IMG/VR virus record: IMGVR_UViG_3300044691_000286
Span: 1 to 40,392 of that record
Reading direction: 5' to 3' (one strand)
Length of the DNA stretch: 40,392 nucleotides
DNA from: a virus
In this document: positions 3,110 through 40,392 of the stretch, in pieces
Position numbering within the stretch: position 1 is the stretch's first letter
How the letters are laid out: each line of letters opens with the position of its first letter
Made by a program: the position numbers and the translations under genes
Notes under the pieces: model-generated
The model's input: the letters and a program-made list of their open reading frames with translations, nothing else
Told to the model about the DNA's origin: nothing
Database searches by the model: none

Positions 3110-3742
3110 ATGTCTGACAATTATTGGGACACATTCCAAACCGAGAACAGTGGCGGCGGCAAGGGTATCTCGTTCGGTCAGATCGGTGACCGATCGCAGA
3201 TCGGAGTGATCAAGGGCGGTATCGTGCTCGAGATCAAGAAAATGTCGCAGCAGATCGACTACAACACCAAGCTGCCGGCCGTGTACGACAAGGGTTCCCG
3301 GGCGGGGCAGCCGAAAATGCAGCTGCCTATTCTGCTGCGCACGGACGAGCGTGACCCGCTGAACCCGGAAGACGATGGCCACCGCGTGCTGTACGTCAAG
3401 GGGCTCATGGTGGACGCTATCAAAGAGGCGCTGGCCGCGGTGGACGCCAAAACCCTCGAGGTCGGTGGCGATCTGCGCATCGCCTATGTTGGCGACCGGC
3501 AGATCGACAAGGCGAACATGCGTGCGTTCAAGGCCAAGTACACCAAGGCGCCACCGCAGGTCGCGGATCAGTCCGCGTTCTTCGGCACGACGGCCGGACA
3601 GCAGGCGGCCCCGCCCGTGCAGCCGGTGCAGCAAGCTGGCGGCGCGGTGACGCCCGACCCGTGGGCCGCGCAGCCACAGCGGCCCGTCCAGTCGCCGTAC
3701 ACCAACCCGGCTCCGGCCGGTGACGTGAACCCGTTCGGCTGA
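3110..3742 (+). CDS. Putative single-stranded DNA-binding protein
   Basis: 210 aa, ATG with AAGG 9 bases upstream in an AT-rich 37-bp gap (3073-3109) that may hold a promoter. Residues 1-155 look like a compact beta-rich domain (SFGQIGDRSQIGVIKGG, LPILLRTDERDPLNPEDDG, LRIAYVGDRQIDKANMRAF). Residues about 165-210 are a Gln/Pro/Ala-rich tail ending GDVNPFG, much like the acidic or hydrophobic tips used by SSB proteins for partner binding. It is not a standard bacterial SSB by sequence. Actinophages often place such a protein directly after a Cas4-like exonuclease; the assignment is by that context plus the tail. Confidence 0.6.
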   Translation: MSDNYWDTFQTENSGGGKGISFGQIGDRSQIGVIKGGIVLEIKKMSQQIDYNTKLPAVYDKGSRAGQPKMQLPILLRTDERDPLNPEDDGHRVLYVKGLMVDAIKEALAAVDAKTLEVGGDLRIAYVGDRQIDKANMRAFKAKYTKAPPQVADQSAFFGTTAGQQAAPPVQPVQQAGGAVTPDPWAAQPQRPVQSPYTNPAPAGDVNPFG

Positions 3743-3751
3743 CGGCGTAAC

Positions 3752-3830
3752 ACCCGGTCCCGCTCTGGCGATATACCTACTGACCGACAACGAAGGGCAG
3801 TCAGATGGCAGAGTCAGAGCGGGACCGGGT
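3752..3830 (+). repeat. Perfect 16-bp inverted repeat enclosing the start of the next gene
   Basis: ACCCGGTCCCGCTCTG at 3752-3767 is matched exactly by its reverse complement at 3815-3830. The 47-nt interval contains the ribosome-binding site (AAGGGCAG) and the ATG at 3805 of the following gene; the right arm is within its codons 4-9. In the mRNA this would form a long GC-rich stem with the start region in the loop, so it could act on translation initiation, or could end transcription from the gene upstream (no U-tract is seen). Confidence 0.8.
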
Positions 3831-4248
3831 CCGGCGCGAGATCGCCGAGATCAACAGACGTCGCCGCGAGGCGCGAGACCAGGCAGCGTATGAATCGGCA
3901 GCAGCCGAAGAGCGCGCGAGTAAGTGGTCCGATCATCAAGCTGAGAAAGAATCAGAAGAGATCATGCGGATGCTGGGGGGGAGCCTCTCCGAACTCCGCG
4001 CGAACATTGACAAGGATCTCCCCCAGATGCCAACGGTGCGGCGGGCTATCGACGACATCGCCAAGGCGCAACGCAAGGGGCAGCGGAGCAAGGCCAGGCG
4101 AATCGCCAAAAAGAATCGCAAGCTGATTCTCGGTTCGCAGAAAAAGAAAGGATGCTCGTTGTTCGCGCTGCTGCTGATCGTCGCGGTTGGTGGTGTCGTC
4201 TTCGGCTCATACGAAGGCGTCGACGCGTTGGTGAGCGCCATCGCTTGA
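3805..4248 (+). CDS. Coiled-coil protein with C-terminal membrane anchor
   Basis: 147 aa, ATG with GAAGGGCAG upstream. Residues 1-60 are strongly charged and helical (ERDRVRREIAEINRRRREAR), 85-115 are Lys/Arg-rich (KAQRKGQRSKARRIAKKNRK), and about 118-140 form one hydrophobic segment (CSLFALLLIVAVGGVVFGS), giving a tail-anchored topology with a basic cytoplasmic part. No family recognised. It could sit at the membrane and bind nucleic acid, but that is inference from charge only. Its start lies inside the 3752/3815 inverted repeat. Confidence 0.75.
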   Translation: MAESERDRVRREIAEINRRRREARDQAAYESAAAEERASKWSDHQAEKESEEIMRMLGGSLSELRANIDKDLPQMPTVRRAIDDIAKAQRKGQRSKARRIAKKNRKLILGSQKKKGCSLFALLLIVAVGGVVFGSYEGVDALVSAIA

Positions 4249-4253
4249 CAGAA

Positions 4254-4300
4254 GGTTTCCCGGATGGTCGTATCTCCGGTTCGACTCCGGAGACGGGAGC
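4254..4300 (+). ncRNA. tRNA-like hairpin element, copy 1
   Basis: 5-bp outer stem TCCCG (4258-4262) / CGGGA (4294-4298), a 10-nt bulge GATGGTCGTA on the 5' side, then a perfect 7-bp stem TCTCCGG/CCGGAGA with the 7-nt loop TTCGACT, a consensus tRNA T-loop. Stem total is 12 bp, the same as tRNA acceptor plus T stem, but there are no D or anticodon arms. Transcription is not shown; strand is assigned from the T-loop. Confidence 0.6.
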
Positions 4301-4302
4301 GC

Positions 4303-4342
4303 AGGGCTAGGCTAGGCTCGGCCCGGCTCGGCAAGGCAAGGG
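4303..4342 (+). repeat. Pentamer array NNGGC x8, after tRNA-like copy 1
   Basis: Eight consecutive 5-bp units with fixed GG at positions 3-4 and C (once G) at position 5: agggc, taggc, taggc, tcggc, ccggc, tcggc, aaggc, aaggg. The first two positions vary. The same eight-unit arrangement follows copies 2 and 3. Confidence 0.85.
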
Positions 4343-4349
4343 ATAGATG

Positions 4350-4378
4350 TTGACAGTTGTGGACAGAGCGAGTAGCGT
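4350..4378 (+). promoter_or_regulatory. Promoter/operator of the shared motif, driving tRNA-like copies 2-4
   Basis: TTGACA (4350-4355), 17-bp spacer, TAGCGT (4373-4378). The spacer carries GTTGTGGACA, shared with sites at 32372, 35486 and 39269. The predicted start is near 4385, about 11 bases before tRNA-like copy 2, so a transcript would carry copies 2-4 and continue into the gene at 4701. Confidence 0.65.
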
Positions 4379-4395
4379 CCTCCTATCAGCAGAAC

Positions 4396-4442
4396 GGTTT
4401 CCCGGATGGTCGTATCTCCGGTTCGACTCCGGAGACGGGAGC
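4396..4442 (+). ncRNA. tRNA-like hairpin element, copy 2
   Basis: Identical in sequence to copy 1 over its whole 47-nt length from GGTTTCCCGG to CGGGAGC, with the same 5-bp stem, 10-nt bulge and 7-bp/7-nt T-arm. It starts about 11 bases downstream of the predicted transcription start of the 4350 promoter. Confidence 0.6.
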
Positions 4443-4444
4443 GC

Positions 4445-4484
4445 AGGGCTAGGCTAGGCCAGGCTAGGCCAGGCTCGGCAAGGG
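4445..4484 (+). repeat. Pentamer array NNGGC x8, after tRNA-like copy 2
   Basis: Eight units: agggc, taggc, taggc, caggc, taggc, caggc, tcggc, aaggg. The first three and the last are the same as in the first array; inner units differ only in their first two bases, so the GGC phase is kept while the rest drifts. Confidence 0.85.
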
Positions 4485-4487
4485 ATA

Positions 4488-4535
4488 GGTTTCCCGGATG
4501 GTCGTTATCTCCGGTTCGACTCCGGAGACGGGAGC
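4488..4535 (+). ncRNA. tRNA-like hairpin element, copy 3
   Basis: Same as copies 1 and 2 except for one extra T in the bulge (GTCGTTAT instead of GTCGTAT). Both stems and the TTCGACT loop are intact. It begins four bases after the end of the second pentamer array. Confidence 0.6.
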
Positions 4536-4537
4536 GC

Positions 4538-4577
4538 AGGGCTGGGCCCGGCGCGGCGCGGCGTGGCGAGGCAGGGC
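4538..4577 (+). repeat. Pentamer array NNGGC x8, after tRNA-like copy 3
   Basis: Eight units: agggc, tgggc, ccggc, gcggc, gcggc, gtggc, gaggc, agggc, then aggga. The first unit matches the other arrays, but most of the rest has changed in its first two bases while the GGC is kept in every unit. Confidence 0.8.
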
Positions 4578-4591
4578 AGGGAGCAGTAGGC

Positions 4592-4632
4592 GCGGGAATG
4601 GTTGCAGGATCGGTTCGATTCCGGTCCCCCGC
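4592..4632 (+). ncRNA. tRNA-like hairpin element, divergent copy 4
   Basis: Different sequence, same plan: outer stem GCGGG (4592-4596) / CCCGC (4628-4632), 10-nt bulge AATGGTTGCA, 7-bp stem GGATCGG/CCGGTCC (one G-U pair) and loop TTCGATT. The bulge fits the same RATGGTYGYA pattern as copies 1-2. Stems compensate for sequence change, which argues that the structure matters. No pentamer array follows; the gene at 4701 starts 68 bases downstream. Confidence 0.55.
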
Positions 4633-4700
4633 ACGCAGCACGAGCAGACTCCACAAGGGACTCACGGCTCCGAGGACTGCACAACCAGGGAGACACCGCA

Positions 4701-5270
4701 ATGCACATCGACATCATCGGCACACAACCGCTGATCACCCACAATATTCAGCTCGCCGACTCTTTGAACACGTACACCAGGTCCATCAAGGAAATCTCCT
4801 CCAAGCGGAAGAAGACTGACGAGGACAACCTGGAAATGAGTCGGCTGGAATTCCTCGGCGGGCTGTACTGGGCTGAGGAAATCGGTATCTACATGCCTGC
4901 TGAGAACATCTTCCGAGCGCTCATGCAGGCTGCATCGATCAACCGCGCGGGAAAGAAGATCGAGCGTGGGCTTATCACCCACGGTTCGCGCTACCCGCTG
5001 CAGTTCGACGGACCGTCGGACCCCGACGAACTGTGGGGGGGCGGCACCAGTCAGTTCGTTGACAGGCGAATGGTCAACATCATGGGCAAAAGGATCGCGC
5101 GGACGCGTCCTATTTTCCCACGGTGGGGGTTCTCTTTCGATTGCGACATCAGCACCGACGTACTGGACGTGGACGAATTCACGTCCATCGTGGATCAGGC
5201 CGGAAGCATGATCGGGCTGGGTGACTACCGACGATTTTACGGCAAGTTCACTGCGACGGTGACTCCGTGA
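4701..5270 (+). CDS. Conserved phage protein of unknown function
   Basis: 189 aa, ATG with AGGGAG 9 bases upstream. Segments that look conserved are HIDIIGTQPLITHN at the N-terminus, SSKRKKTDEDNLEMSRLEF, GIYMPAENIFRALMQAA, a DGP/DELWG turn, RTRPIFPRWGFSFD and GLGDYRRFYGKF near the C-terminus. I recall this pattern as a widespread hypothetical protein of tailed phages, often near recombination or replication genes. The alternating beta strands and glycine-rich end would fit an RRM/RAMP-like fold, but that is a guess. It follows the tRNA-like modules directly and overlaps the next gene by GTGA, so the two are translationally coupled. Confidence 0.75.
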   Translation: MHIDIIGTQPLITHNIQLADSLNTYTRSIKEISSKRKKTDEDNLEMSRLEFLGGLYWAEEIGIYMPAENIFRALMQAASINRAGKKIERGLITHGSRYPLQFDGPSDPDELWGGGTSQFVDRRMVNIMGKRIARTRPIFPRWGFSFDCDISTDVLDVDEFTSIVDQAGSMIGLGDYRRFYGKFTATVTP

Positions 5271-5758
5271 CCGCTCCATACACGCCTGCCGACGGTGTCC
5301 AGGCACGGTGGCGTTACGCCTATGACCTGGTGCTCACCAAGCAGCCGGGCGACGATGTCACGCTCCAAGAACTGGCGGAGATTCTGGGGCTCGACTGGCA
5401 GGCTGACAGCCAGGTCCTGCGGTCGGTGATGCTCGAGGCCAAGAAACACCTCGAGCAGGACAAGCTTCAGACGGTGCGCACCGTAGCGCGGTTCGGCTGG
5501 GTTGTGCTCTCGGCGGCCGGTAACCTCGACCAGGTCGAGAAACGGCGCCAAAAGGCGGGTCGGGCAACGGATCGCACGGCCCGGCTGATTACCGCCACCG
5601 ACCGCGGCCAGCTCAGCCCGATCGAGCGCAACCGGCTGGACTTCGAGACGCGCAACGTGCTCGCGGCCGGTGCCTTGTTCCGGCGCAAGCCCAAGAGTTT
5701 CGCCGAGCTGCAGCGGACCGAGAGTCAGCGGAAGATCGGCCCCGGCACGGACGCGTAA
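5267..5758 (+). CDS. Putative winged-helix DNA-binding protein
   Basis: 163 aa, GTG start overlapping the TGA of the preceding gene. Residues about 28-80 read as a helix-turn-helix with wing: VTLQELAEILGLD, then SQVLRSVMLEAKKHLEQD and a strand pair TVRTVARFGWVVLSAA. The second half is basic (EKRRQKAGRATDRTARL) and ends in a Lys/Arg-rich tail. It is the last gene of the rightward unit, facing the bidirectional terminator. A regulatory role is plausible from the fold but not shown. Confidence 0.6.
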   Translation: MTAPYTPADGVQARWRYAYDLVLTKQPGDDVTLQELAEILGLDWQADSQVLRSVMLEAKKHLEQDKLQTVRTVARFGWVVLSAAGNLDQVEKRRQKAGRATDRTARLITATDRGQLSPIERNRLDFETRNVLAAGALFRRKPKSFAELQRTESQRKIGPGTDA

Positions 5759-5763
5759 CGCAG

Positions 5764-5810
5764 AAAAGAGCCCCGCCTTCGCCAGAGACTGGCAGAGGCG
5801 GGGGCTCTTT
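5764..5810. terminator. Bidirectional intrinsic terminator between convergent units
   Basis: AAAGAGCCCCGCCT and AGGCGGGGGCTCTTT form a 14-bp stem with one bulged base around a 17-nt loop, with A-run on the left and T-run on the right, so it can terminate transcripts from both sides. It lies exactly between the stop of the rightward gene ending at 5758 and the stop of the leftward gene ending at 5824. Confidence 0.9.
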
Positions 5811-5823
5811 CGTATGCCGACGA

Positions 5824-6174
5824 TCAGGCGGAGGGGGAAACGCCCGCGTCGACGACCGGCACGGAAGGATCCGTCGGTGTGGGCCCGTCCGTGCCGGGGT
5901 CGGCCACGACGGGCGGAGTGCTGCCGTCGGCCGGAGCCGCGTCAGCGGACCGGAAGGCGGCGATCTTCGCCTCGATCGAGTCGGCCACCTCCTGCACGGC
6001 GGACTGGCTCGAGCCGTTCGCGACCTGCGAGCGCAGCGAGCGGACCTCCTCGAGGATGTCGCCGAAGACCTGGTCGAGGTCGGCTTCCGCCTGGACGATG
6101 TCGGACACGTGGGCCTCCAGATTCGCCAACCGGTACAGCACCGATTGGTGGTGGGACGGGTGATGGCTGAACAC
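5824..6174 (-). CDS. Coiled-coil protein downstream of holin
   Basis: 116 aa, GTG start with a perfect AGGAGG 8 bases upstream. Residues 10-80 are helical with heptad-like leucine/valine spacing (VLYRLANLEAHVSDIVQAEA, DILEEVRSLRSQV, VADSIEAKIAAF); residues 83-116 are a Pro/Asp/Thr-rich tail. It is the last gene of the leftward late unit, just beyond the holin. No family recognised; a lysis accessory role is only inferred from position. Confidence 0.7.
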   Translation of the reverse strand: MFSHHPSHHQSVLYRLANLEAHVSDIVQAEADLDQVFGDILEEVRSLRSQVANGSSQSAVQEVADSIEAKIAAFRSADAAPADGSTPPVVADPGTDGPTPTDPSVPVVDAGVSPSA

Positions 6175-6193
6175 GAGCGTACCTCCTGACCGG

Positions 6194-6415
6194 CTAGACG
6201 ACAGTCGGCTTGGCGATGGTCACCGGCTCGTGGTTGGCGACCGTCGCCACGGCCGCCGGCGTCAGGATCGCCGACGCGGCCGCCAGGATGGCAGCCACCG
6301 TGCCCGCGTCGACGTGCACGTGAAAGATTGCCAGGATACCCAGCACCGTTGGCGCGGGCAGCTGGGCTAGCACCGCGGCGACGGCCTTGCGGTAACGAGC
6401 GAGGGTGGTGAACAC
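6194..6415 (-). CDS. Holin
   Basis: 73 aa, GTG at 6415 with GGGAGG upstream. The protein opens with a short basic stretch (TLARYRKAVAAVLAQLP), then two hydrophobic segments at about 23-37 (TVLGILAIFHVHV, containing His) and 40-60 (TVAAILAAASAILTPAAVATV), and a short polar C-terminus. The L-T-P turn followed by a final strand-like end is typical of small two-helix actinophage holins next to the endolysin. It would form lesions in the inner membrane at the end of infection. The open frame reaches further upstream, but the start is set by the ribosome-binding site. Confidence 0.75.
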   Translation of the reverse strand: MFTTLARYRKAVAAVLAQLPAPTVLGILAIFHVHVDAGTVAAILAAASAILTPAAVATVANHEPVTIAKPTVV

Positions 6416-6456
6416 GATGGCCTCCCACGTGGGTTGGTTGATGGGGTTGCGGTGGG

Positions 6457-7281
6457 TCACGCGGTGGGGCTCACCGCGACGGTGACTTTGAGGTGTGCCG
6501 CCACGGCCGCGTCCAGTGCGGCAGTGATCTGGTCCGGCGTGATGTCCGGGTTCGACGCCAGCGCGGCGACGGCGGAGATCAATGCCGAGTTCTGGGCCGT
6601 GAGCGCGTCGAGGTGCGCCGCGAGCACGCCGGTGGGTGCGCCGGTTCCCGGGGGCCGAAGCCAGTTTTCGATGTTGGAGAGCCGCGCGTTGTCTTCGGCG
6701 AGAACGTTGTTCACGCTCTTGACGTTGGCACTGGCGGGCGGGTTCGGCCCCCAGCTCACGAGCTTGACGTTGTCGGTCAGTTCCATCTCTGCCACTCCCT
6801 GCGTGTCGACGCCTGGCCACACATCGGCCACGCTGCTGATATCCACGGTCCCTGGCCAGCCGGGTGGCCGGTAGTCAAGCATGTATTGCGTGGCGACCGA
6901 ACCCGCGATGACGCCGGCCGTCTTGCTGGCCGTCGCCACCCAGTAGTGCGGCTCCGCCACACCGCGCGCCCGGAACGCGGCCTGCACCGCAGGCAGCCCG
7001 GTCGTTGGGTTGCGGTTGCAGTAGACGGTGGGGTCCATCCCGACCTTGCGACGGCTGATTACCCAGTCGACCGCTTCCGCCGGAGTGGCGTCGCCCGGTT
7101 CGACGTCGAGCACGTGACCGTCCATCACGCTCGCCTGCGTGGCGATGCGGACCTTGACCGCGTTCGGGAACCGTGCCCAATCCGCGGCCGACCAGGTGTA
7201 TCGGCCGGAGACGTAGCCCGCCACCATCGCTGCGGTGGTCGGGATGTTCGTCGCTGTAACGCTGTCGTACATCGTGCGCAT
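6457..7281 (-). CDS. Endolysin-like glycoside hydrolase
   Basis: 274 aa, ATG with GGGAGG 5 bases upstream. The N-terminal 175 residues resemble glycoside-hydrolase (GH25-like or DUF1906-like) domains of actinophage lysins: MYDSVTATNIP, MVAGYVSGRYTW, the acidic strand VLDVEPGDATPAEAVDWV, TVYCNR, HYWVAT and a late QYMLDY. The C-terminal part (about 190-274) is helical with repeated Leu/Ala and may be a cell-wall or oligomerisation module. No signal peptide, so release would depend on the holin encoded next. The catalytic residues are assigned only by resemblance (the Asp/Glu in DVEPG). Confidence 0.6.
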   Translation of the reverse strand: MRTMYDSVTATNIPTTAAMVAGYVSGRYTWSAADWARFPNAVKVRIATQASVMDGHVLDVEPGDATPAEAVDWVISRRKVGMDPTVYCNRNPTTGLPAVQAAFRARGVAEPHYWVATASKTAGVIAGSVATQYMLDYRPPGWPGTVDISSVADVWPGVDTQGVAEMELTDNVKLVSWGPNPPASANVKSVNNVLAEDNARLSNIENWLRPPGTGAPTGVLAAHLDALTAQNSALISAVAALASNPDITPDQITAALDAAVAAHLKVTVAVSPTA

Positions 7282-30777: not shown

Positions 30778-31488
30778 ATGACCGACACCGTCACACTGCC
30801 CGCCGACTGGCGCGAGCAGGTCCGCACCAACTACCAGCGCGGCTTCACCGGCGGACCCGACGCCATCATCGAACTCATCGACGTCCATTGGCGAACCGGC
30901 ACCGCACCCGCAGACCCGCCTGACCGATGGTTGGGACTCACTGCCGCGAGCGTGGTCATCACCCGAGACACCCGCCCGATGGTCGGAACCCAGGCGGAGT
31001 GGGAATGCTGGTTCAGCTACGGCCAGCCGCGCAGCATGGTGCGTACCCTCATCCCGTGCCCGCGCGGATTGTTCGGCGAAGTCGCGGTCGGCCAACGGAC
31101 CGCTGACATCTACGACGCGATGATCAAGGCCGTCGCCAACCTCACCGCCGACGACCTCGCACGCCTCACTGCGCCGCCGGTTCGCGTGCCCAACGCCGAC
31201 GGGCCGCGGTCCCCGGAGCGGCTGAGAGTCACGGCCACCACACCACCCTCGGCGAGCGTCCTCGTCGGCTCCCACCTGATCGTCATCGGAGCCGCGCCAC
31301 TGCTGGATGCGGTCGCCCACCTCGTCGGCATCGGGGACGACGGCGTCACCGTGCTCCGTGGTGTAGCCGTCCGCCGTGGCAAGGCCTACCCGCCCGCGCC
31401 ACCGCCGCGGTTCATCTCGCTCGCCGTGGTGCACCTCCTGCCCGCGCAGAACACCATCTACGACCGTGACATCGAACAGGCGGGATGA
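30778..31488 (+). CDS. Hypothetical protein
   Basis: 236 aa, ATG. N-terminal half: LPADWREQVRTNYQRGFTGG, EWECWFSYGQPRSMVRTLIP. Second half: TADIYDAMIKAVANLTADDL, VGSHLIVIGAAPLLDAVAHLV, AYPPAPPPRFISLAVVHLLP. No signal peptide or clear membrane helix. I do not recognise it. The gene ends 4 bases before the HIT gene, so the pair is probably co-translated. Confidence 0.65.
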   Translation: MTDTVTLPADWREQVRTNYQRGFTGGPDAIIELIDVHWRTGTAPADPPDRWLGLTAASVVITRDTRPMVGTQAEWECWFSYGQPRSMVRTLIPCPRGLFGEVAVGQRTADIYDAMIKAVANLTADDLARLTAPPVRVPNADGPRSPERLRVTATTPPSASVLVGSHLIVIGAAPLLDAVAHLVGIGDDGVTVLRGVAVRRGKAYPPAPPPRFISLAVVHLLPAQNTIYDRDIEQAG

Positions 31489-31492
31489 CGAC

Positions 31493-31915
31493 ATGCCGAC
31501 CGTGAGCGACTGCGTGTTCTGCGAGGTCGTGGCCGGCACCGCGCCTGCTGCGATCGTCCGCGAGTGGCCGGACGCCGTGGCGTTCAAACCGCTCGACCCC
31601 GTCGTCGAGGGGCACGTCCTCGTCGTCCCACGCGAGCACGTAGACGACGCGACCACCGACCCCGTCGTCACCGCCTACACCATGCACCGCGCCGCCGAAC
31701 TGGCCCGCGAGATGGACCACTCGAACATCCTGACCAGCATCGGCAAACCGGCCACGCAGAGCATCTTCCACCTGCACATCCACGTCATACCCAGGGCGAC
31801 AGGTGACCAGCTCATGCTGCCGTGGGGAACGACCGGCAACCCGCACGACCCACACTGGTGCAAGGTCGCTGACGCGCTCAACGCGAAGCTCAACGCGACG
31901 GCGAGACCGAGATAA
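31493..31915 (+). CDS. HIT-family protein (histidine triad)
   Basis: 140 aa from the ATG at 31493. Complete HIT fold: SDCVFCEVVAGTAPAAIVRE (with the CxxC often seen in actinobacterial members), VAFKPLDPVVEGHVLVVPRE, HRAAELAREM and the catalytic FHLHIHVIPRATGDQ (H-x-H-x-H). HIT enzymes cleave nucleoside phosphoramidates, AMP-lysine or dinucleoside polyphosphates. As a phage gene it could strip adenylyl groups or signalling nucleotides such as Ap4A; the substrate cannot be told. It follows the hypothetical gene at 30778 closely. Confidence 0.85.
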   Translation: MPTVSDCVFCEVVAGTAPAAIVREWPDAVAFKPLDPVVEGHVLVVPREHVDDATTDPVVTAYTMHRAAELAREMDHSNILTSIGKPATQSIFHLHIHVIPRATGDQLMLPWGTTGNPHDPHWCKVADALNAKLNATARPR

Positions 31916-31923
31916 GCGAGTAA

Positions 31924-31943
31924 CGGTCGGCCGCAACCGACCG
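31924..31943 (+). other. Small hairpin after the HIT gene
   Basis: CGGTCGG and CCGACCG form a 7-bp stem with a 6-base loop, 8 bases after the HIT stop. No U-tract follows. The rest of 31944-32070 shows no gene on either strand. Confidence 0.5.
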
Positions 31944-32075
31944 ACTCATCAACCACCACCCCGACGTTCGGAAAGTAGCGGCAGCGCGCCCAACGCCGCG
32001 TCCATTCACGCGAGTGGCATCGCACCATGGCCATGAGCCGAGTAGCCTTAGCCTGTCCTGGTGTCGGTCAGGCAG

Positions 32076-32114
32076 CAATGCCCCGTCGGGGTCCACCACC
32101 CTGGCGGGGCGTTG
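32076..32114 (+). terminator. Probable terminator upstream of the HTH gene
   Basis: CAATGCCCCG (32076-32085) pairs with CGGGGCGTTG (32105-32114) including one G-U pair, followed by TTCTG. It separates the HIT unit from the promoter of the HTH gene, 14 bases before that promoter's TTGACC. Confidence 0.6.
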
Positions 32115-32127
32115 TTCTGTGCCCTCT

Positions 32128-32156
32128 TTGACCAAAACTGTCAAGACCCGTACCGT
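32128..32156 (+). promoter_or_regulatory. Leaderless promoter of the HTH gene with inverted operator
   Basis: TTGACC (32128-32133), 17-bp spacer, TACCGT (32151-32156); the ATG of the HTH gene is 7 bases after, at the expected transcription start. TTGACCAAAACTGTCAA (32128-32144) is a perfect 5-bp dyad and, on the other strand, reads TTGACAGTTTTGGTCAA, the shared operator in reverse. This suggests self-control by the HTH protein. Confidence 0.7.
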
Positions 32157-32162
32157 GGCGCC

Positions 32163-32375
32163 ATGACCTCCAAGACATGGCTCACGCGAGAAGAGGCTGC
32201 CGCCCGGCTCAAGGTATCGACGCGCACGTTGGCGCGGTACACCGAGCTGGGTCTCATCCGCCGCGTCAAGGGCCCCACGCCGACCGAACCGTCCCTAGGA
32301 CTCAACGTGGTGCGCTACCAGCGCAGCGAGATCGAGCGCTACCGCGCCGTCCTGCGGGCCAAAATCAGTTATTGA
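32163..32375 (+). CDS. Small helix-turn-helix regulator (MerR/excisionase-like)
   Basis: 70 aa. TWLTREEAAARLKVSTRTLA (helix-turn-helix), RYTELGLIRRVKGP (wing), then VVRYQRSEIERYRAVLRAKI. No ribosome-binding site; the ATG falls at the predicted transcription start. Its own stop codon TGA is part of the TTGACA of the next promoter (32372). Because the inverted operator sits on its promoter and the same motif controls four other places, it is the best candidate for the regulator of the set. It could be a Cro-like control protein; no integrase supports an excisionase role. Confidence 0.78.
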   Translation: MTSKTWLTREEAAARLKVSTRTLARYTELGLIRRVKGPTPTEPSLGLNVVRYQRSEIERYRAVLRAKISY

Positions 32376-32400
32376 CAGTTTTGGACACGAGGACTAGCGT
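32372..32400 (+). promoter_or_regulatory. Promoter/operator of the shared motif, upstream of 32441
   Basis: TTGACA (32372-32377), 17-bp spacer with GTTTTGGACA, TAGCGT (32395-32400). It shares AGTTATTGACAGTT with the site at 35486. Start near 32407, leaving a 34-base leader with GGAG before the GTG at 32441. Confidence 0.7.
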
Positions 32401-32440
32401 CGCTCATAGCAGTTCGACACGCCGCACCGAGGAGATCACC

Positions 32441-32674
32441 GTGAGCCAAGCCAGCCTTGTGGGGCAGCACGTCGTCGGGCACCTGCACCGCAATATCGGA
32501 CCGAATGACCCGTTCTCGGGCGTTGTCGAGTCGGAGTACGTCGTGTCGATCGGTGGTTTCGACATCCCGATGGTCGCTTGCACCGCCGATAACGGCCGCG
32601 CGGTGTACGCGCTCCGGGCGCACGTCGTAGTCGACGCCCTGACAACAGCCAACGATACGTCCACGCAAAGCTAA
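32441..32674 (+). CDS. Small hypothetical protein
   Basis: 77 aa from the GTG at 32441 (GAGGAG 7 bases upstream). Reads ASLVGQHVVGHLHRNIGPND, VESEYVVSIGGFDIPMVACT and ALRAHVVVDALTTAND; beta-rich with no recognised family. Driven by the 32372 promoter and placed directly before the methyltransferase. The open frame extends further upstream over the HTH gene, which is noise. Confidence 0.65.
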   Translation: MSQASLVGQHVVGHLHRNIGPNDPFSGVVESEYVVSIGGFDIPMVACTADNGRAVYALRAHVVVDALTTANDTSTQS

Positions 32675-32692
32675 AAGCTGATCGGAGTGACT

Positions 32693-33484
32693 GTGATCAT
32701 CGAGGGCGACGCCCGCACGTGCTTGACCGCATTGGACGGCGGGTTGGCCAATATCGTGGTCACAAGCCCGCCATACTTTGGGTTGCGTGACTACGGCGTG
32801 CCGGGAGAGATCGGCGCTGAACTCCACCCGGACGACTACGTCAAGGCCCTGATCGATGTGCTTGACGGTGTACAGCGCATTCTCGCCCCGGACGGCTCGG
32901 TGTTCCTGGTGGTGGGCGACAAGTACGCCAGAACGGGCGGTGTGGACCGGAAAGTGCGCGGCGGTGCGGCAGACCCGGGAGGCCGCGTGCACGCCCGCCC
33001 TGTCCAGCGGGGAGTTGCCGGCGTGAAGAACGGGTCGTTGATCGGGCTGCCGTTCCGGTTGGCGCTCGCAGCAGTAGACGCGGGCTGGGTGTGGCGTCAG
33101 GAAATCGTGTGGCACAAACCCAACCCGCTGCCGGAGTCCGTCCGCAACCGGTCTCAGCGCTCGCACGAAACCATCTTGCACTTATCCCGCACCAACCAGC
33201 CATACTGCCGGAATATCGACGGCGGGCGTTTCGGTCACGACGTGTGGGAATTCCCCGTGGGCAGCTATCGGGATCCGTTGGGGCGTAAGCACCCCGCTGT
33301 GTTCCCCGAACCGCTGGTAGAGCGCATCCTGACCGACTACTGTCCACCTGGCGGACACGTGCTGGACCCGTTCGCAGGTAGTGGCACCACGTGCGCAGTA
33401 GCGCGCAGGGCAGGGCTGCGCTGGACCGGCATTGAGCTGAACCCGGAGTACGCCCAAATAGCCCGGATGCGGTGTGCGCTGTGA
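32693..33484 (+). CDS. DNA methyltransferase (beta-class, N4-cytosine or N6-adenine)
   Basis: 263 aa from the GTG at 32693, chosen because GGAG lies 5 bases ahead of it; an in-frame GTG at 32687 overlaps that site. Motif IV comes first: VVTSPPYFGLRDYGVPGEIG (TSPPY), then LIGLPFRLALAAVDAGWVWR, IVWHKPNPLPESVRNR (typical of this class), HPAVFPEPLVERIL, and motif I near the end: VLDPFAGSGTTCAVARRAGL with WTGIELNPEY. This order is the beta group. No restriction enzyme is adjacent, so it most likely protects phage DNA from host restriction. It overlaps the polymerase gene by GTGA. Confidence 0.88.
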   Translation: MIIEGDARTCLTALDGGLANIVVTSPPYFGLRDYGVPGEIGAELHPDDYVKALIDVLDGVQRILAPDGSVFLVVGDKYARTGGVDRKVRGGAADPGGRVHARPVQRGVAGVKNGSLIGLPFRLALAAVDAGWVWRQEIVWHKPNPLPESVRNRSQRSHETILHLSRTNQPYCRNIDGGRFGHDVWEFPVGSYRDPLGRKHPAVFPEPLVERILTDYCPPGGHVLDPFAGSGTTCAVARRAGLRWTGIELNPEYAQIARMRCAL

Positions 33485-39960: not shown

Positions 39961-40392
39961 ATGACCGACTACGAGCGCACCGTCACCACCCAATCCGAAC
40001 TGGACACCGCAATCAGAGAGGGTGTCGAGTACATCGACATCCGGTCGCCCCGTGGTGTGTGGATTGAAGTCCGCGCCACCGGCTCGGCGACCGTCCGCGC
40101 CACCGGCTCGGCGACCGTCCGCGCCACCGGCTCGGCGACCGTCCGCGCCACCGGCTCGGCGACCGTCCGCGCCACCGGCTCGGCGACCGTCCGCGCCTCC
40201 GGCTCGGCGACCGTCCGCGCCACCGGCTCGGCGACCGTCCGCGCCTCCGGCTCGGCGACCGTCCGCGCCACCGGCTCGGCGACCGTCCGCGCCACCGGCT
40301 CGGCGACCGTCCGCGCCACCGGCTCGGCGACCGTCCGCGCCACCGGCTCGGCGACCGTCCGCGCCTCCGGCTCGGCGACCGTCCGCGCCACC
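39961..40392 (+). CDS. Octapeptide-repeat protein, N-terminal part (runs off the end)
   Basis: 144 codons, no stop before the window end; ATG with GGGAG upstream. The start reads TDYERTVTTQSELDTAIREG then VEYIDIRSPRGVWIEV, after which about 13 copies of RA(T/S)GSATV run to the end. The C-terminal part is at 1-564. Joining the two ends as given does not keep the repeat phase (14 bases of a unit appear to be missing), so part of the array is lost or collapsed in the assembly. An 8-residue beta-rich period suggests a solenoid; no enzymatic motif. The antiparallel open frame over the array is a composition artefact. Confidence 0.8.
   Translation, partial: MTDYERTVTTQSELDTAIREGVEYIDIRSPRGVWIEVRATGSATVRATGSATVRATGSATVRATGSATVRATGSATVRASGSATVRATGSATVRASGSATVRATGSATVRATGSATVRATGSATVRATGSATVRASGSATVRAT
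40075..40392 (+). repeat. 24-bp tandem repeat, right end
   Basis: About 13 units of the same 24-bp repeat as at 1-154, nearly identical, with ACC/TCC alternation as the main difference. No spacers, so not CRISPR. Confidence 0.95.

Follow-up and report, generated by a model that had tools for sequence, protein, structure and literature searches.

The analysed stretch of DNA, here called the window, is a virus record of 40,392 bases. Its large terminase (phrog_9) shares 53% identity with the one from Tsukamurella phage TPA4, Gordonia phages being next closest, and therefore the window is probably an actinophage; a DNA similarity search of positions 3700-6500 against annotated phages gave no match. 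An identical 24-bp tandem repeat is found at both record ends (1-154 and 40069-40392), which would fit a circular or terminally redundant genome, or else an assembly that was interrupted within the repeat. The 452-nt gap between the ORF at 3805-4248 and gene 4701, which is the leader of gene 4701, houses four hairpin elements in tandem and three arrays of GGCNN pentamers:

3805..4248, plus strand: upstream ORF, 147 aa, no match in the PHROG search
4258..4298, plus strand: element 1, recognised by sequence, structural descriptor and covariance model R1 (60.2 bits, E 3.4e-18); outer stem 4258-4262/4294-4298, D-loop-like bulge 4263-4272, inner stem 4273-4279/4287-4293, T-loop 4280-4286
4300..4345, plus strand: GGCNN pentamer array after element 1
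4400..4440, plus strand: element 2, core sequence identical to element 1; descriptor, R1 59.8 bits
4442..4487, plus strand: GGCNN pentamer array after element 2
4492..4533, plus strand: element 3, bulge of 11 nt with a one-nt insertion (GATGGTCGTTA); descriptor, R1 50.1 bits
4535..4582, plus strand: GGCNN pentamer array after element 3
4592..4632, plus strand: element 4, recognised by sequence, descriptor and R1 (57.9 bits)
4701..5270, plus strand: gene 4701, 189 aa, phrog_4652 (unknown function)

Element 1 begins 9 nt past the stop codon of the upstream ORF and gene 4701 starts 68 nt past element 4. All four elements follow a common plan: a 5-bp outer stem, a 10-nt 5' bulge (RATGGTYGYA), a 7-bp inner stem and a 7-nt loop (TTCGAYT); in element 1 an extra outer pair (4257/4299) is optional. 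Elements 1-3 are near-identical and element 4 has divergent stems (GCGGG/CCCGC and GGATCGG/CCGGTCC) with the bulge AATGGTTGCA and the loop TTCGATT. Four hairpins of one plan, three near-identical and one divergent, had been described in the earlier note and were confirmed by sequence, descriptor and R1; its layout of stems, bulge and loop stands, and what it did not contain is the D-loop-like character of the bulge with its T-loop pairing, the size of the family and the placement at gene boundaries. The descriptor had exactly four matches in the window, both strands included, versus none in 50 mononucleotide shuffles (one strand each). R1 likewise returned exactly these elements with E-values of 3e-18 to 9e-15, which are rough, as are those of the model R2, and two of the four match by construction since they were in the set of 72 sequences used for training. 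The bulge motif alone was not significant in the window (16 matches versus 12.6 expected, one mismatch allowed). The minimum free energy of the elements was no better than that of shuffles (z -0.1 to -1.0); in this GC-rich stretch free energy is uninformative, and the proof has to come from covariation. As to the pentamer arrays, 19 of the 21 matches of GGCNNGGCNNGGCNNGGC in the window fall into the arrays at 4300-4582, with 2.1 expected in the whole window. Similar GGCNN arrays were seen after elements in Gordonia phage Trine (contig L332, Trine 31300-33000) and in the metagenomic contigs L043, L054 and L083.

The loop TTCRANY closed by G53-C61 is present in all four window copies (the relatives described below were selected with this loop). 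Like a tRNA, the element combines a 7-nt T-loop TTCRANN closed by G-C with a stack of acceptor and T stem of ~12 bp, a purine after the helix and a GG-containing, D-loop-like segment that contacts the T-loop. Unlike a tRNA, it is only ~41 nt long, has neither anticodon arm nor D stem nor CCA, and its bulge is 6-7 bp away from the T-loop instead of 5. A cloverleaf with an anticodon arm was not found: ARAGORN reported no tRNA gene in the window, and the Rfam tRNA model gave no match up to E 5, in agreement with the earlier note, according to which the hairpins are not complete tRNA genes. No family of Rfam 15 was matched at its gathering cut-off. isrB (RF01386) reached 15.7 bits with a cut-off of 35; this lead was dropped because the signal was weak and the same sub-threshold signals were seen in 8 unrelated control genomes. 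The tRNA-like domain of tmRNA, the Y RNA YrlA, mascRNA and the tRNA-like structures of plant viruses engage tRNA enzymes via the elbow or the T-loop. Unlike the elements, these RNAs are larger or single-copy with extra domains, and none gave an Rfam match.

The elements of the window belong to a large RNA family that is absent from Rfam 15. The pattern ATGGTYGYA-N5-GGTTCGAYTCC, which defines subtype 1, was found in at least 119 IMG/VR stretches, and in most of them the outer and inner helices form with different bases; ARAGORN made one doubtful tRNA call overlapping an element in these stretches. R1 matched in 50 of 50 viral records searched, which had been picked for holding the pattern, and added further copies, with up to 12 matches in one record. 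A gap-free alignment of 72 non-redundant, well-paired members had standard pairs in 99.5% of the pair cells versus 60.4% after shuffling, a percentage that is raised by the omission of ~14 of 86 non-redundant members, including those that pair only in another register. The changes on both sides of a pair are not produced by this omission; they amounted to 331 cells versus 84 in shuffles, and the pairing was destroyed by a slide of one column. The two G-C pairs that close the loop were prescribed by the pattern itself, as were the loop and some of the bulge. Selection on structure, as argued in the earlier note, is thus borne out by these counts and by a junction between orthologous genes (71% and 61% identical) that Streptomyces phages Caliburn and Danzina have in common, where the fold was kept through four double changes: one in an outer pair, two in inner pairs and one in the closing pair of the bulge. 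At a junction of Mycobacterium phages Konstantine and Predator, which was paired up by its sequence, the element changed from TCCGGG/CCCGGA to TCGGGG/CCCCGA and was again compensated. G-U cells outnumbered A-C cells by 38:2 and 20:3, and therefore the functional molecule is an RNA of the strand given. The neighbouring proteins are diverse and the genomic settings many and unrelated, which means that no particular gene goes with the element.

Covariation also extends to the bulge. Its positions 1 and 7 covary in subtype 1 (G-C 56, A-U 15, G-U 1), closing a loop AUGGU; position 1 had been free in the search pattern. The T-loop base at column 33 correlates with this closing pair, an indirect sign of a contact between bulge and T-loop in subtype 1. 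The same phages hold a second subtype with the bulge RNNGGCANNCA, a 6-bp inner stem and the loop TTCGAGN, whose pattern GGCANNCA-N4-GGTTCGAGNCC occurs in at least 120 IMG/VR stretches. In 90 divergent members of subtype 2, bulge positions 2 and 8 pair (C-G 44, A-U 27, G-C 11, U-A 5), and bulge position 9 pairs with T-loop position 7 in 89 of the 90 (A-U 59, G-C 18, C-G 8, U-A 3); all four columns were unspecified in the pattern. This is direct evidence that the bulge of subtype 2 touches the T-loop, as the D-loop of a tRNA does. By analogy, the bulges of the window copies, which are subtype 1, may dock onto their T-loops in the same way. The conserved GG of the bulge may play the part of G18-G19. 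Since the closing pair of the bulge and the T-loop pair of subtype 2 covary, we regard the element as a minimal tRNA elbow and not as a decayed tRNA: an acceptor/T-arm-like helix of ~11-13 bp (11 bp in subtype 2, 12 bp in subtype 1, 13 bp in some) with a T-loop cap and a D-loop-like bulge in the 5' strand, lacking D stem and anticodon arm. Together with the covariation of the helices, the T-loop and the helix plan support the proposal of the earlier note that the hairpins are tRNA-like acceptor/T-arm RNAs.

A variant in Mycobacterium phage Indlulamithi (L199, positions 30001-71538) with the bulge AACGGTTTTCG and the loop TTCGATT sits at most early gene gaps; it scored low with R1 and R2, so that there are subtypes beyond the two modelled. 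In L038, L021, L062 and similar contigs, elements with helices of up to 13 bp are flanked by CCCCGAACTG...CAGTTCCTCATCAAA, the start codon follows close behind and there is no second hairpin of the kind described below; the hosts are possibly Bacteroidota. Some metagenomic family members are AT-rich.

Annotated carriers of the element include Mycobacterium phages Konstantine, Predator, Indlulamithi and SWU2, Streptomyces phages Caliburn and Danzina, and Gordonia phage Trine. Carriage of the element was the criterion by which annotated phages were selected, except for R4 and phiC31. As a rule, the elements sit at gene boundaries. Of the 45 gaps of at least 70 nt in the early regions examined of Konstantine, Indlulamithi, Caliburn, Danzina and SWU2, 33 contained an element, always in sense orientation, with a median distance of 9 nt past the upstream stop and 41 nt ahead of the next start. 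Genomes hold up to about a dozen copies, mostly directly past stop codons and between early genes. At the metagenomic loci, 52% of the subtype-1 and 67% of the subtype-2 elements had a stop codon (frames of 60 or more codons) 5-20 nt upstream, versus 3-8% at shifted positions. Hence tRNA-like units lie on the sense strand between co-oriented genes and abut stop codons, as in tRNA punctuation. As negative control served Streptomyces phage R4, a member of Caliburn's subfamily with tightly packed genes, in which no elements were found. phiC31, a phage with early-region terminators, had none either; its real tRNA-Thr alone matched the loosest descriptor. An antisense descriptor match inside the polymerase gene of Danzina was not scored by R1 and R2 and was taken as chance.

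Trine has a homologue of gene 4701 (40.7% identity), with the first of three elements ~9 nt past its stop. The gene following the Trine elements has no homology to ORF 5267 of the window, and shared synteny on that side is therefore not claimed. The annotated start of Trine gp40 (record 31440-32243) reads through all three elements; a likelier start is the ATG past the third one (L332:647), which is preceded by a GAGAGGA site.

Downstream of the element, many actinophages have a short hairpin with a variable stem, then a GAGAGGA-like site and the start codon. For subtype 2, a hairpin of at least 6 bp within 32 nt was present in 56 of 144 elements, and 40 of the 56 began exactly 3 or 4 nt past the element, versus 14-21 hairpins with scattered offsets at control positions. 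For subtype 1 there was little excess (9 of 72 versus 4-9 in controls; 7 of the 9 at the 3-4-nt offset). At the Konstantine/Predator junction the second hairpin changed from CGGTTCTCG to CGAATCTCG, with matching changes opposite each other.

On balance, the elements probably act in cis as tRNA-elbow mimics that punctuate phage operons and are cut by host RNase P and perhaps tRNase Z. In a long early transcript, host RNase P would take each element for a pre-tRNA and cut it at its 5' edge; tRNase Z or another nuclease could cut in the 3-4-nt linker ahead of the second hairpin. The polycistronic message would thereby be converted into single-gene mRNAs: the upstream one would stop shortly after its stop codon, and a protective hairpin would form the 5' end of the downstream one. 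Overall this would be a phage analogue of mitochondrial tRNA punctuation, where tRNA-shaped units likewise lie between co-transcribed genes directly past stop codons; the phage units differ in not being tRNAs, and they are known here from sequence, their processing being putative. The choice of RNase P as acting enzyme is our inference. RNase P reads a G-C first pair and a purine and a C past the helix. The first helix pair of the elements is mostly G-C, above all in subtype 2, and R and C follow directly, so that with the stack of ~12 bp (11 bp in subtype 2) they present G1-C72, R73 and C74, with C75 mostly absent. The tail reads R-C and then G or T, with C at the third position in 4 of 72 and 8 of 144 elements, and therefore no CCA end is encoded. 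The helix of a tRNA has 12 bp and C75 helps RNase P; helices of 11 and 13 bp and the missing C75 thus speak against simple punctuation. So do the weak presence of the second hairpin in subtype 1 (9 of 72) and, in the window and in Trine, the tandem clusters with GGCNN arrays, several copies in one gap being more than a simple scheme needs. Bacterial RNase P accepts synthetic acceptor/T-arm hairpins and cleaves them at the canonical site (PMC11143913). The elements resemble these substrates in the stacked helix, the T-loop cap and the lack of an anticodon arm, but are natural and repeated and have a D-loop-like bulge in the 5' strand. The M3 RNA of phage phi80 and the antisense RNAs of phage C4/P4 are RNase P substrates as well (PMC11143913); like the elements they are phage-encoded non-tRNAs, their processing by RNase P being established and that of the elements putative, but they are single trans-acting RNAs, and the C4 family of Rfam did not match the elements. 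The earlier note had left a choice between processed RNAs, decoys of host tRNA enzymes and processing signals; of these, a processing signal acting in cis agrees best with the position rule, a conclusion that we infer from placement. We give about an even chance to the broader proposition that a large undescribed RNA family of tailed phages uses minimal tRNA elbows to recruit host RNase P and tRNA 3' nucleases for mRNA punctuation, the processed messages of early genes carrying a 5'-terminal hairpin.

The position past stop codons and ahead of starts, and the stable fold, would also suit an insulator that tRNA enzymes leave uncut in the mRNA and that blocks exonucleases or ribosomes, be it as a 3' or 5' stability element or by preventing translational coupling. 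A plain hairpin would suffice for this purpose, whereas the covarying contact of D-loop and T-loop and the conserved R-C tail suggest a tRNA-binding factor, and we consider the insulator unlikely, though conceivable. Multiple copies per genome and a fold that amounts to a complete elbow could also point to decoys acting in trans, that is, excised mini-tRNAs which titrate elbow-binding proteins of the host or of its defence. A decoy could sit anywhere, and the strict placement at successive gene boundaries and the second hairpin at a fixed offset argue for an action in cis; decoys are therefore improbable. The put RNAs of phage HK022 are read by RNA polymerase and cause antitermination or pausing, and the sense orientation of the elements in early operons would be compatible with such RNAs. 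However, put RNAs are not known to occur once per gene gap or to have a tRNA elbow, and we rate this explanation lower still.

That the elements are intrinsic terminators, as GC-rich hairpins just past stop codons might be, is very improbable: the hairpin is not followed by a T-run, the terminator scan did not report the elements, and they lie within runs of co-oriented genes, with the start region of the next gene following. The earlier note had named decayed tRNA copies as the main alternative. The tRNA-like sequence of the T-arm and the near-identity of three window copies would be in line with decayed tRNA genes or with DNA repeats devoid of an RNA function, but the same plan and loop are kept with newly compensated stems in very many phages and in many unrelated settings, G-U is far above A-C, and even E 5 brought no tRNA match in Rfam. 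This reading is already refuted by covariation, and we assign it a negligible probability.

We found no description of the family in Rfam 15 or in the open literature searched; subscription literature or preprints may hold one. While tRNA mimicry as such is known, neither Rfam 15 nor the open literature searched has a family of minimal tRNA elbows that is dispersed over the gene boundaries of bacterial viruses. If the preferred reading, punctuation by tRNA-elbow mimics, is true, crowded phage operons would separate messages without promoters or terminators, and the elements would provide RNase P, TruB and tRNase Z with minimal substrates of natural origin, as well as being compact parts for multi-gene transcripts. 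Many unannotated RNAs would be added to well-studied Mycobacterium, Streptomyces and Gordonia phages.

The hosts of the family phages include Actinobacteria, at least one lineage of Bacteroidota, and others. Among 84,980 bacterial and archaeal genomes the strict subtype-1 pattern occurred in 72 stretches, nearly all from Actinobacteria (Streptomyces, Nonomuraea, Corynebacterium, Microbacterium, Brachybacterium, Gordonia, Nocardia, Tsukamurella and others) and one from Hymenobacter. A model scan found the family in 3 of ~495 host genomes, one of them the known centre genome; since 19-29 candidates were scored per genome, the remainder are weak negatives. Twelve pattern-bearing host genomes had 1-5 copies each, and at 3 of 5 host loci whose neighbours were tested mobile-element genes were found (integrase, FtsK-like, Sak4-like), the other 2 giving nothing decisive. 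Because of these adjoining genes and the few copies, the family looks like one of phages and integrated elements and not of the host core genome. In one IMG/VR contig, a type I hammerhead ribozyme that exceeds the gathering score of Rfam (L016:1376-1425) lies 2 kb from an element.
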